This document shows, piece after piece, positions 5,217-21,415 of a DNA stretch of 39,891 nucleotides. The notes beneath the pieces were generated by a model, which saw only the letters and a list, made by a program, of their open reading frames with translations, had not been told where the DNA came from and searched no databases. The position numbers were made by a program, and so were the translations under genes. Every line of letters starts with the position of its first letter. Positions within the stretch are counted from its first letter, which is position 1. The DNA lies in contig JAFGRV010000297.1 of assembly GCA_016934975.1 (NCBI GenBank), forward strand, positions 1-39,891, in the 5' to 3' direction. The stretch is from Spirochaetales bacterium. GTDB lineage: Bacteria > Spirochaetota > Spirochaetia > SZUA-6 > JAFGRV01.

Positions 5217-5654
5217 ATGAAAGACAAGATGAATGATTTTTTAAGTGTTACCAGAGATTTAATGAAAAAATTCCACATCATTAACCGTGAACAGCGGTAT
5301 TGTCATAAAATCACCCTGTCCCAGGGCTATGCCATAAGTGTTCTTGCGCAAAAAGGAAAAATGAGCATGAGTTCCTTAAGTCAGGAACTTGGGGTTTCCC
5401 CGAGTACCATGACAAGAATTGTGGATGTCCTTGTGCGGGAGAATATTATTACCCGGGCTGTGGAATGTGATGACCGCCGTCAGGTCTGCGTGGAATTGAC
5501 GGATTATGGCCATGAACTTCACGCCTCCCTGGAGCAAAGCTCTACCGAATATTTATCACTTTTTCTTAAAGCGCTTCCCGAGGATAAGCAGGAAGATGTC
5601 ATCGCGTCCCTTATGCTGCTCAATAAAGCGATCGGCGAGGTCTGCCCTCCCTGA
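5217..5654 (+). CDS. MarR family winged-helix transcriptional regulator
   Basis: GKMSMSSLSQELGVSPSTMTRIVDVLVRENIITRAVECDDRRQVCVELTDYGHEL is a MarR wHTH-wing; RBS aaggagtaagg upstream. Confidence 0.92.
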   Translation: MKDKMNDFLSVTRDLMKKFHIINREQRYCHKITLSQGYAISVLAQKGKMSMSSLSQELGVSPSTMTRIVDVLVRENIITRAVECDDRRQVCVELTDYGHELHASLEQSSTEYLSLFLKALPEDKQEDVIASLMLLNKAIGEVCPP

Positions 5655-5689: not shown

Positions 5690-5717
5690 TTGACATCCTC
5701 ATTTTTTTGCATAGAAT
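5690..5717 (+). promoter_or_regulatory. Sigma70-type promoter of the tRNA-like/structured RNA segment
   Basis: TTGACA (5690-5695), 16 nt spacer, TAGAAT (5712-5717); expected TSS ~5724. Confidence 0.65.
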
Positions 5718-5739
5718 TCATATCAGTCTGTATTTGTCA

Positions 5740-5824
5740 GTAAGCTTACCGGGCAAGGATTTCCGTATGGTCCTGCAGTGCTTTCCGCCTTGAAAGAGTC
5801 GCGGGAAAGTATGCTGAAGCTTAC
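5740..5824 (+). ncRNA. Predicted structured 5' domain of the tRNA-like transcript
   Basis: GTAAGCTT (5740-5747) pairs with AAGCTTAC (5817-5824), enclosing hairpins GC(A)AGGA/TCCTGC and CTTTCCGC/GCGGGAAAG. Confidence 0.4.
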
Positions 5825-5834
5825 GTGAATGCAA

Positions 5835-5876
5835 ACTAGCCGAACGGATGACAGGGGTTCGATTCCCCTATTAGTG
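5835..5876 (+). ncRNA. tRNA-like module 1 (canonical T-arm, no anticodon arm)
   Basis: T-arm AGGGG-TTCGATT-CCCCT (5853-5869) followed by acceptor-like ATTAGTG. Only 13 nt (CCGAACGGATGAC) lie between the 5' acceptor-like ACTAG and the T-arm. Confidence 0.6.
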
Positions 5877-5878
5877 TA

Positions 5879-5942
5879 AACTGATTCGTCTAGTGGCAGG
5901 ACATTCGTTTCCAAAAGTGAAGGTTCGAATCCTTCATCAGGC
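5879..5942 (+). ncRNA. tRNA-like module 2 (D-arm plus T-arm, reduced anticodon region)
   Basis: AACTGAT-TC-GTCTAGTGGCAGGAC (D-arm), short TTCGTTTCCAAAAGT region, T-arm GAAGG-TTCGAAT-CCTTC (5919-5935), acceptor strand ATCAGGC (5936-5942). Confidence 0.65.
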
Positions 5943-5946
5943 TTCG

Positions 5947-5990
5947 GCCTGATTGGCGGAACGGTAGACGCAATAGACTGATAATCTATC
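5947..5990 (+). ncRNA. tRNA-like module 3 (5' half: acceptor strand, D-arm, intact anticodon arm with GAT; no downstream T-arm)
   Basis: GCCTGAT-TG-GCG(GAACGGTAGA)CGC-A-ATAGA(CTGATAA)TCTAT: 3-bp D stem, 5-bp anticodon stem, 7-nt loop with T33 and anticodon GAT. Confidence 0.65.
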
Positions 5991-6274
5991 TTTTTACGTG
6001 TAAGTGGCGGTAAAGAAGGGTTGGTCTTCCATGAAGGCTTCGGCTTTTGTGTAAGAACAATTGTATGTGCTTTGCAGGAAGGCGGATGATGGATCCGGCC
6101 ATCCGGCTGCGGCTTGCGGGAAACAGGTATGGTGACCCGGCATATTCAGGTGCCGGGAGGCATAGGTGTTGAACATGGCCCCAACCGGAAAAGAGGTTTC
6201 CACCCCCCTTGCTCCGTACATCCGATTGAGACCCTCTTTACTTCCGCTTATTTTTATGAAACCAGGAGGACCGG

Positions 6275-7378
6275 ATGATTATAAAGAATGATGAACGGGG
6301 ATTATTATTTAAAGACGGGAGTTATGTAAAACACCTGAAACCGGGGAATTACTTTTATTTCGGTTCTCATAAGAATAAAATAACAGTTCTCGATGTGAAT
6401 AAACCCTTTGAAACGGAAAAGGATATTTCGGTTTTTCTGGGAGATGAGGAGCTTAAAAAAGAACTTGATATCCTTGATGTCAGGGATAATGAGATAGCTC
6501 TTTATTATCAGGATGGGAAATTTGTGAGGATTTATACCTCCGGGAAATATGCCTTCTGGAATGTATTAAAAAAGAATACCTTTAAAATCCTCGACAAGAA
6601 TAACCCCGAGTTGGATGATACAATTGAACGCTCTTTGTTTTCTCATCCGGCTTTCGCCAATCGTTACACTCTCCTGGAAGTCTTTAATTTTGAGAAAGGA
6701 CTTCTCTTCTATAATAATACCTTCCAAAAATTACTCGATCCCGGGAGATATTATTTTTTAAACGGGAATATCGCCGTTACCGCGCTAAAAGCGGATCTGC
6801 GGCGTCAGCAAATGGATGTGGCGGGGCAGGAGATCATGACGGAAGATAAAGTCACTTTGCGCCTTAATTTTGTCTGTCATTTTGTCATTGTAGATCCCAT
6901 AAAGACCTATCTTGAGACAAAAGATTTCCAGACTCAGGTTTATAATCTGCTCCAGCTCATTTTACGGGAGTATGTAGGGTCCATGAAACTGGACGAGCTG
7001 CTGCGGAAGAAAAAAGAGATCGGGGATTTTGTTCTTGAACAGCTGAAGCAGCAGAGTGACGTATTTGGTATCGAGTTTCTCTTTGCCGGATTAAAGGATG
7101 TGATTCTTCCCGGTGAAATCAAGACTATTTTAAACACGGTGATTCTGGCGGAAAAAAAAGCCCTGGCAAATGTCATTACACGAAGGGAAGAAACGGCATC
7201 TACCCGGAGTCTTTTAAATACCGCAAAATTGATGGATGAAAACAAAACCCTCTACCGCTTAAAAGAATTTGAAGTCCTGGAAAAGATCTGTGAAAAAATA
7301 GGAAATATTTCCCTTATGGGAGGGGGATCTTTGATTGAGCATTTGAGCGCCCTTTTTACTGCCCGGAAAGAGGAATAA
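6275..7378 (+). CDS. SPFH/Band-7 domain protein (slipin family)
   Basis: Stomatin/slipin-type features: two N-terminal repeats (NDERGLLFKDGSYVKHLKPGNYFYF / FEKGLLFYNNTFQKLLDPGRYYFL), then DVAGQEIMTEDKVTLRLNFVCHFVIVDPIKTY...LQLILREYVGSMKLDELL and ...FGIEFLFAGLKDVILPGEIKTILN. RBS aggagg. Confidence 0.92.
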   Translation: MIIKNDERGLLFKDGSYVKHLKPGNYFYFGSHKNKITVLDVNKPFETEKDISVFLGDEELKKELDILDVRDNEIALYYQDGKFVRIYTSGKYAFWNVLKKNTFKILDKNNPELDDTIERSLFSHPAFANRYTLLEVFNFEKGLLFYNNTFQKLLDPGRYYFLNGNIAVTALKADLRRQQMDVAGQEIMTEDKVTLRLNFVCHFVIVDPIKTYLETKDFQTQVYNLLQLILREYVGSMKLDELLRKKKEIGDFVLEQLKQQSDVFGIEFLFAGLKDVILPGEIKTILNTVILAEKKALANVITRREETASTRSLLNTAKLMDENKTLYRLKEFEVLEKICEKIGNISLMGGGSLIEHLSALFTARKEE

Positions 7379-19560: not shown

Positions 19561-21105
19561 ATGGATAGTATAGGGAGAATAGAACAAATATACAAAGATT
19601 ACGCGCCTTCACTTGTCCGGCGTATTAAATGGTATTTTCCAAATGATTCTTTTTTAGTCGATGATATTTTACATGAAATATTTATATCTTTAATCAAGAA
19701 AAAAATGAAACTTGATTTAGGCGAAAGAATCTTTGTTTATCTGCATAATGCTGTCAGGTTTAAATGCCTGGATATAATAAAAAAAAATAAAAAACGTACT
19801 ATAATAATTAATTCAGAAATAATTGACCTTGTTATAGATCCAAAGGTTCATACTGAACAAGCGATTGTTACAAAGGATTACATTAAAAACATACTTCAAT
19901 TTTTAAAACCAAAATATCGCTTATTATTTATGTTGCGGTTTATCAATCAATATAAAAGAAAAGATATCGCCGAGATGCTGAACAGACCGGAAAATACTAT
20001 TAAAAAGCAGATTCAAAAGATACGTTCCATATTACAAAAATCATTGGAAAGAGATTTGTCAAATATTAAATCTGATATTAAAATGATAATTCTTGATTCC
20101 TGTCATTCCGGTGCTTTTATACAGGCAAAGGGTGGGAGCTTTTATCCTCCTTTTTTAACAACATATAAAACGAGCGGGTATGTCTACTTAACATCCTGTA
20201 CTGCGGATGAAAACTCATATGAATCGGAAAGCATTGAATATTCTCTTTTTACCTTTTCATTATTACTGGGATTAAGGGGGGCGGCAGATTCAAATAACGA
20301 TGGTAATATCACATTGAATGAACTATACCAATTTGTTTTTAATGAAACCTTGAATCAGGCAGAGAAAATTACCTCTCAAATGCAGCATCCTTCATATAAG
20401 ATTAAATTAACCGGCACAGGGGATGTCATTATCACTAATATTCATCAAAATACATCACGCCTTATTATCAAGCCGGAAATCAGGGGAAATGTCATTATCA
20501 AAGATTCATTCAACAATATTATTGTTGATATAGAAAAAAGAAATGAAAAACCATTAGAGATATTTCTTATTCCAGGTGAATATTTTTTTTCCGTATATTT
20601 CAAGGATAAAAAATATAGTAAGAAATTTCGTATCAAAATCAATGACATACAGGAAATAGCTTCTTTAAAGGATTTGGATAGAATAGACCAAAATAAGAAT
20701 GGGGTCAAAGGAGAAACCGCGGACCGCATCAGCATACACTTGACCGGTGTCTATGCCATACCCCTTTCGGAAAATCTGAACACCGAAGTAAAAGGCTTTG
20801 CCGGGTGCAGTCTCCAGGCAGGTTTTACTTTACTGGAATTCGGATTACTGATTTTTAACGTCACTGCCGCCGGGAGTTGTCTGTATCACCCGGAAATAAA
20901 TTCTGCCTCGAACGTGAAAAGTATGTTTATCGCCACCGGAGTAGCAGGTGGTGGAATAGGGCTTGATTTCGGCAGCATCCAACCATTTCTTAACATCGCA
21001 GGGGGTGTATCTTTTTCGGTTGTTGACAGCAGGTTTTATGATCGAACCTTTATCCTCCCCAATCCATCACTGCTGGGTGAACGCAGATGGAACCTGGGGA
21101 AGTAG
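19561..21105 (+). CDS. In-frame chimera: ECF-type sigma factor / C-terminal part of caspase-like peptidase / truncated beta-rich domain
   Basis: aa 1-~165: sigma region 2 and 4 (YKDYAPSLVRRIKWYF...DDILHEIFISLIKKK; LKPKYRLLFMLRFINQYKRKDIAEMLNRPENTIKKQIQKIRSILQ). Then KMIILDSCHSGAF...GYVYLTSCTADENSYES..YSLFTFSLLLGL (caspase Cys motif and p10-like), then a PEGA-like and barrel-like tail. Confidence 0.75.
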   Translation: MDSIGRIEQIYKDYAPSLVRRIKWYFPNDSFLVDDILHEIFISLIKKKMKLDLGERIFVYLHNAVRFKCLDIIKKNKKRTIIINSEIIDLVIDPKVHTEQAIVTKDYIKNILQFLKPKYRLLFMLRFINQYKRKDIAEMLNRPENTIKKQIQKIRSILQKSLERDLSNIKSDIKMIILDSCHSGAFIQAKGGSFYPPFLTTYKTSGYVYLTSCTADENSYESESIEYSLFTFSLLLGLRGAADSNNDGNITLNELYQFVFNETLNQAEKITSQMQHPSYKIKLTGTGDVIITNIHQNTSRLIIKPEIRGNVIIKDSFNNIIVDIEKRNEKPLEIFLIPGEYFFSVYFKDKKYSKKFRIKINDIQEIASLKDLDRIDQNKNGVKGETADRISIHLTGVYAIPLSENLNTEVKGFAGCSLQAGFTLLEFGLLIFNVTAAGSCLYHPEINSASNVKSMFIATGVAGGGIGLDFGSIQPFLNIAGGVSFSVVDSRFYDRTFILPNPSLLGERRWNLGK

Positions 21106-21415
21106 TTCGGATGTAAGGCAGAAGGAAAACATAAAAGATATAAGCTCCGGATTGGATAAAATTTGTGCTATGCGGAGTGTTTCATATAATACTATTGGTT
21201 CCGATCCTGAACAAAAGGATCAGATTGGTTTTATTGCCCAGGAAGTAGAAGAGATAGTACCGGAAATAGTATCCACAGACCGGGAAGGATACAAAGGAAT
21301 TGCCTATGCAAAGCTGACCCCAATTCTGGTGAAGGCAATACAGGAACAGCAGGAACTTATCGAAGAATTGAGAAGAGAGATCGCTGAACTTTCCTTACGG
21401 GTGGATGACTTGTAA
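21065..21415 (+). pseudogene. Fragment of peptidase S74/endosialidase chaperone domain protein (5' part missing)
   Basis: NADGTWGSSSDVRQKENIKDISSGLDKICAMRSVSYNTIG...QIGFIAQEVEEIVPEIVSTDREGYKGIAYAKLTPILVKAIQEQQELIEEL; begins in a different frame inside the upstream ORF. Confidence 0.75.

Follow-up and report, generated by a model that had tools for sequence, protein, structure and literature searches.

What is encoded by the roughly 550 nt of sequence that separate a MarR-type gene (5217-5654) from a slipin (SPFH/Band-7) gene in a Spirochaetales bacterium? The locus lies in a window of 39,891 nt, the whole stretch of DNA that was analysed (GCA_016934975.1, contig JAFGRV010000297.1, positions 1-39,891, forward strand), and T-arm, D-arm and anticodon-arm motifs of tRNA occur between the two genes. 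The original prediction had proposed three tRNA-like modules behind a strong promoter, directly upstream of the slipin gene, as part of an RNA-repair-type module. Motif reading bore out the T-arms, the D-arms and one intact anticodon arm, and both the promoter and the downstream slipin gene in the same orientation were recovered (Table 1). The tRNA-like elements are real, but they make up two modules rather than three, each of them circularly permuted, within one structured, non-coding RNA of ~500 nt (5751-6241 with flanks) that follows the near-consensus promoter and precedes the slipin gene. We regard the existence of this RNA and its association with slipin as near certain.

A long RNA with two permuted tRNA mimics

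The tRNA-like region (5852-5989) consists of two circularly permuted tRNA mimics, in which a T-arm is followed by a capped acceptor hairpin, a D-arm and an anticodon-type stem. The fold is that of a tRNA whose break lies in the anticodon or variable region and whose acceptor end is sealed by a short loop. The D-arm is succeeded in some cases by an anticodon hairpin and in others by a strand complementary to sequence 5' of the T-arm. Because the acceptor is capped and offers no free acceptor end, the RNA cannot be charged. Two hairpins (P1 and P2) precede the mimics and a 3' domain follows them. Transcription would start near 5724, and the RNA probably ends near 6241.

Comparative evidence carries this model. 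In an alignment of 15 sequences, both-sided changes were found in 28 of 37 pairs; pairing holds in 94% of the alignment cells for the proposed structure as a whole and in 100% for the capped acceptor helix. None of 500 shuffles reached any of five structure measures, and shifting the partners by 1-3 columns destroyed the structure. Directly 3' of the T-arm, a hairpin of at least 5 bp is present for 54 of the 62 T-arms in homologous loci. All 13 two-module loci tested have a fully paired permuted acceptor (6 or 7 bp), whereas pairing of an ordinary tRNA acceptor is incomplete in every one of them (1 to 5 pairs). When the whole RNA of the window was folded by free energy, the result was mildly unusual (z = -2.2), a value that is not informative alone. 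The 3' domain of the window has diverged apart from its closing helix; in relatives, 16 of 20 consensus pairs of this domain show both-sided changes, and the motifs GGATACCG and AAGC-N-CTCCGC are conserved. A single-sequence search did not place the uninterrupted part of the long-range helix in the window above shuffles; we accept the helix because relatives support it and because its bulged form can be read by eye.

Tandem tRNA genes are the natural false positive for such a fold, in that the T-arm of one tRNA precedes the D-arm of the next. An out-of-sample covariance model, built from Firmicutes only and containing no spirochaete sequence, scored the window at 84.1 bits (E about 3e-20); true tandem tRNA genes, checked with ARAGORN, reached at most about 51 bits. 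Tandem tRNAs were rejected as the source of the strong model matches, since ARAGORN-confirmed arrays stay below about 52 bits; the weaker matches that were examined proved to be real tandem tRNA genes. ARAGORN called no tRNA gene in the window and none at the slipin-linked RNAs, and Rfam gave one weak tRNA match in the window (5881-5940, 32 bits). An ordinary tRNA, with a standard-order cloverleaf and an open acceptor end, was rejected on the absence of ARAGORN calls and the failure of ordinary-order acceptor pairing. Three separate or decaying tRNAs were likewise rejected, as the acceptor strands pair and covary in the permuted order and the ordinary order fails.

Table 1. Coordinates of the RNA, its elements, the slipin gene and two unlinked RNA copies
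Feature	Position	Strand	Basis or remark
Sigma-70-type promoter, TTGACA-N16-TAGAAT	5690..5717	+	11/12 consensus matches
P1 hairpin (GCAAGGA...TCCTGC)	5753..5776	+	conserved, covarying helix 1
P2 hairpin (GTGCTTTCC...GGAAAGTAT)	5778..5812	+	both-sided changes in 7/9 pairs
tRNA-mimic module 1, permuted, YrlA-like	5845..5907	+	element order, pairing and covariation, covariance model
Module 1 closing stem, CGGAT / ATTCG, replacing the anticodon stem	5845-5849 / 5903-5907	+	
Module 1 T-arm	5853-5869	+	
Module 1 capped acceptor stem, ATTAGT(GTAA)ACTGAT	5870-5885	+	
Module 1 D-arm	5888-5902	+	
tRNA-mimic module 2, permuted	5919..5989	+	motif and element-order reading
Module 2 T-arm	5919-5935	+	
Module 2 capped acceptor, ATCAGGC(TTCG)GCCTGAT, UUCG loop in the RNA	5936-5953	+	
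Module 2 D-arm	5956-5971	+	
Module 2 anticodon hairpin, loop CUGAUAA (anticodon-like GAU)	5973-5989	+	
3' domain of the RNA	6010..6241	+	closing helix read directly in the window; consensus pairs covary in relatives
Long-range closing helix, GTAAAGAAGGGT / ACCCTCTTTAC	6010-6021 / 6231-6241	+	one bulged base, read by eye
Slipin (SPFH/Band-7) gene, 367 aa	6275..7378	+	Band_7 (PF01145), E = 4e-24
Stand-alone RNA, unlinked to slipin	G001:C250 (L106 8964-9118)	-	3' helix then T-run
Stand-alone RNA, unlinked to slipin	G370:C154 (L128 3389-3547)	+	3' helix then T-run

The RNA accompanies slipin across genomes

Homologous slipin loci (n = 80) came from Clostridia, Paenibacillus, Shimazuella and spirochaete assemblies. 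A T-arm stands at a fixed distance upstream of slipin in nearly all of them, and the RNA adjoins slipin in 77 (first covariance model; 14 of the 77 were in the model seed). Two of the three exceptions hold the RNA apart from slipin: the genome of locus L007 (G001) carries it on a different contig (98.8 bits) and that of L028 (G370) elsewhere in the genome (97 bits). At both sites a long-range helix followed by a T-run was read by eye; an automatic terminator scan flagged neither. Being unlinked from slipin and provided with this 3' helix and T-run, the RNA is a gene of its own, and it acts in trans, at least in these two genomes.

Genome surveys gave the same picture. Of 61 genomes of window relatives, three have slipin, and these three alone have the RNA; in an even sample of 300 Bacillota genomes, five have slipin and four of these have the RNA, always adjacent. 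Overall, 7 of the 361 genomes carry both, 1 carries slipin only and none the RNA only; the nominal probability of this co-occurrence is 5e-14, a figure that ignores shared ancestry. The link between slipin and a tRNA-like RNA on which the original prediction depended therefore held from both sides, in the homologous loci and in a covariance-model search in which the RNA appeared in no slipin-free genome. No such RNA accompanies the remaining three SPFH genes in the window's genome.

The RNA varies in its core. Genome G003 has it directly upstream of slipin. In some Paenibacillus RNAs (L046, L047, L053) the flanking domains are kept and most of the tRNA-like part is lost. Two spirochaete assemblies (L083, L085) have a YrlA-type module only, with a different 5' hairpin sequence, adjoining slipin.

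Relatives beyond Firmicutes

Slipin relatives of full length and 34-44% identity were also recovered from E. coli, Citrobacter, Burkholderia, Photobacterium and Subdoligranulum, and T-arm motifs precede every one of them. In E. coli, slipin is followed by RlaP, and the RNA region upstream shows a T-arm and capped acceptor hairpin only, behind a sigma-54-like sequence (read by eye). Among 5426 E. coli genomes the RNA region was counted in 1627, slipin in 1626 and RlaP in 1625; in about 30% of complete E. coli genomes the three come as a single unit of gain or loss. In Citrobacter, slipin is accompanied by a divergent rtcR and a nucleotidyltransferase gene, with a T-arm RNA region upstream. Burkholderia (L136, L139, L140) has an ordinary-order mimic upstream of slipin, whose anticodon loop is exchanged for a GAAA tetraloop and whose stem changes are compensated between species. 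Two ordinary-order tRNA-like elements lie upstream of the Photobacterium relative (L138 4659-4796) and score 54 and 46 bits against the Rfam tRNA model. What persists across phyla is the T-arm plus acceptor, mostly together with the D-arm, and the anticodon arm is optional, which argues that the RNA mimics the tRNA elbow; the mimicry may be directed at elbow-reading proteins.

Three of the enterobacterial loci (L134, L135 and L141, from E. coli and Citrobacter) sit between yjbD and lysC. The E. coli RNA region is unannotated in the three best records shown, and in strain WAT a zeta-toxin-family gene lies downstream of the slipin locus.

RNA-repair genes in the slipin neighbourhood

RtcB adjoins slipin in 37 of the 80 homologous loci, RlaP-cluster proteins are found in 11 and KptA in 3, and two linked regulator genes, one of them WYL/WCX by Pfam, in about 40. 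As judged from gene content, this recurrent neighbourhood supports the earlier assignment to an RNA-repair-type module. Published observations point the same way. In Anabaena, a mutant of TrcR, the repressor of the trn tRNA operon, shows joint derepression of rtcB and the slipin alr0740 (PMC10272220), and the rtc locus of P. aeruginosa has an SPFH gene within it (PMC13086221). An anti-phage defence label was rejected, slipin being matched by no PADLOC model, and so was a prophage origin, as the phage collection held no full-length slipin relative. At one locus (L017), the RNA-slipin pair is preceded, at a distance of about 2.4 kb, by an array of 19 tRNA genes (99-2172).

The slipin protein and comparison with known systems

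In the predicted structure of slipin (mean pLDDT 77), three beta repeats at the N terminus are followed by an SPFH domain, and a helix forms the C terminus; no membrane anchor stands out when the sequence is read by eye. Its best structural match is stomatin (1e-13, SPFH part), and stomatin structures match by both sequence and fold. With its beta repeats, SPFH domain and helix, the predicted fold of slipin may resemble that of the eukaryotic major vault protein (MVP), which like slipin has an associated non-coding RNA. Foldseek aligned slipin with MVP over 420 or more columns (E = 8e-10), but with low TM-scores (below 0.4), and over the SPFH part stomatin and other SPFH proteins match slipin better than MVP does.

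The closest RNA parallel is YrlA, the bacterial Y RNA (RF02553) that partners Ro/Rsr in rsr-yrlBA-rtcBA operons. Like YrlA, the slipin RNA has a tRNA-like domain in permuted order with a capped acceptor and lies in an RtcB neighbourhood; unlike YrlA, it is about five times longer, has 5' and 3' domains of its own, and is paired with slipin in place of Ro. Positions 23-85 of RF02553 align to module 1 of the sister RNAs of G001, G003 and G370 (28.6-34.3 bits), which fits a common order of T-arm, acceptor and D-arm. RF02553 gave no match in the window or in genome G000, the sister RNAs reached at most 34.3 bits against a 69-bit cut-off, and the genome of the window has no TROVE gene, PF05731 being absent from G000, G001, G002, G003 and G005. 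Membership of the YrlA family was rejected on this sub-threshold score and the lack of a TROVE partner. Permuted tRNA genes of algae and archaea also have their T-half before their D-half. The order is alike; the slipin RNA, in contrast, mostly has its acceptor capped by a short loop, lacks CCA and a discriminator and is not a tRNA precursor.

A 2016 survey by Burroughs and Aravind in NAR reportedly defines SPFH/Band-7 RNA-repair modules with RtcB, RlaP and KptA, and it may describe the present RNA. As in those modules, slipin stands beside homologues of RtcB, RlaP and KptA, although the window itself has no repair gene. Judged by its gene neighbourhood, the slipin RNA system would fall within the SPFH branch of the repair systems associated with RtcB. 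Rfam 15 has no family for the slipin-associated RNA, and a literature search that did not cover the 2016 survey found no description of it.

A proposed role in tRNA damage or translation stress

We favour, with a probability of roughly 60%, a model in which the RNA is a tRNA-shaped, trans-acting partner of a soluble slipin assembly in a response to tRNA damage or translation stress. The region 5724-6241 would encode a trans-acting structured RNA with the two permuted mimics in its core. Its partner would be the soluble, repeat-bearing slipin encoded next to it, to which we infer that it binds, and together the two would form a ribonucleoprotein of that response. The slipin assembly may act as a scaffold, with the mimic tethering or gating tRNA-specific enzymes such as RtcB, RlaP, KptA or a nuclease. 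YrlA RNA presumably tethers or gates enzymes for Ro, and by analogy with Y RNA and Ro a tether or gate role is likely for the slipin RNA.

Several observations weigh against this model. Over half of the fetched loci have no RtcB within the flanks examined, and genome G002 has RtcB with neither slipin nor the RNA. The window has no linked repair gene, in agreement with the original prediction, which saw no RtcB ligase or partner there; RtcB and archease are on contig C5 of the same genome (a partial RlaP-like match is on contig C287), and the window's copy of the RNA would work with this unlinked RtcB. The third exception among the homologous loci, L047, carries a degenerate RNA copy, and the RNA was not detected in the 1.7 Mb genome G327, which has slipin (G327:C63, L122). 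In most loci, moreover, the RNA occupies the 5' leader of slipin, where a cis-regulatory role is possible.

The mimic could instead serve as bait or decoy, being cleaved by, or blocking, anticodon nucleases and other toxins that attack tRNA, so that real tRNAs are spared. Many of the anticodon-hairpin loops do fit the C32-U33-NNN-A37-A38 pattern of tRNAs, and about ten triplets occur among them; further, a competitive-inhibitor role has likewise been proposed for YrlA (PMC7790460). The anticodon arm is not universal, however: G001, G003, G370, L083 and L085 have the YrlA-type closing stem only, the three Burkholderia RNAs carry their tetraloop at this position and the E. coli region lacks the arm. 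Anticodon cleavage is therefore not the general function, and as a general explanation we consider the decoy unlikely; in lineages that have the anticodon hairpin, such a role is possible.

Alternatively, the RNA might be a leader of the slipin mRNA that controls slipin in cis by sensing tRNA-binding enzymes or damage. In most loci it runs in the direction of slipin, downstream of a promoter-like site and ahead of the slipin start, and no terminator was seen between the RNA and the slipin gene in the window. Cis regulation nevertheless fails to explain the unlinked RNA genes of G001 and G370, and the size of the RNA and its tRNA mimicry go beyond a leader's needs, which makes this explanation improbable. 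A decaying or prophage tRNA gene cluster lying upstream of slipin by chance would account for the canonical T- and D-arm motifs and the weak Rfam match, but it is refuted, to the point of being barely conceivable, by conservation across phyla, covarying permuted acceptors, fixed linkage or co-occurrence, the lack of ARAGORN genes at these RNAs and the far lower scores of real tandem tRNAs.

The trans-acting partner model can be taken further. The system might be a widespread, as yet undescribed bacterial ribonucleoprotein in which a soluble, vault-like slipin cage carries a ~500-nt RNA with permuted mimics and handles broken tRNAs with RtcB, RlaP and KptA, an extension that we put forward tentatively and think rather doubtful. 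On this reading, just as speculatively, different phyla would have rebuilt the mimic in their own ways: permuted with a capped acceptor, in ordinary order with a GNRA loop where the anticodon would be, or reduced to T-arm and acceptor. If so, the tRNA elbow would be the feature that is recognized.

What had been vague tRNA-like pieces near slipin is now an RNA family defined by a covariance model, with predicted ends and a probable protein partner. It adds a second class of tRNA-mimicking RNA, besides the Y RNAs, to RNA-repair loci, with slipin standing where Ro would. The role of repair-associated slipins becomes a testable question, for which the RNA-slipin-RlaP unit of E. coli offers a case.

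Elsewhere in the window, an open reading frame at 19561-21105 encodes an ECF-type sigma factor joined to a caspase-like region, and an overlapping open reading frame (20963-21415) encodes a Peptidase_S74 chaperone domain.
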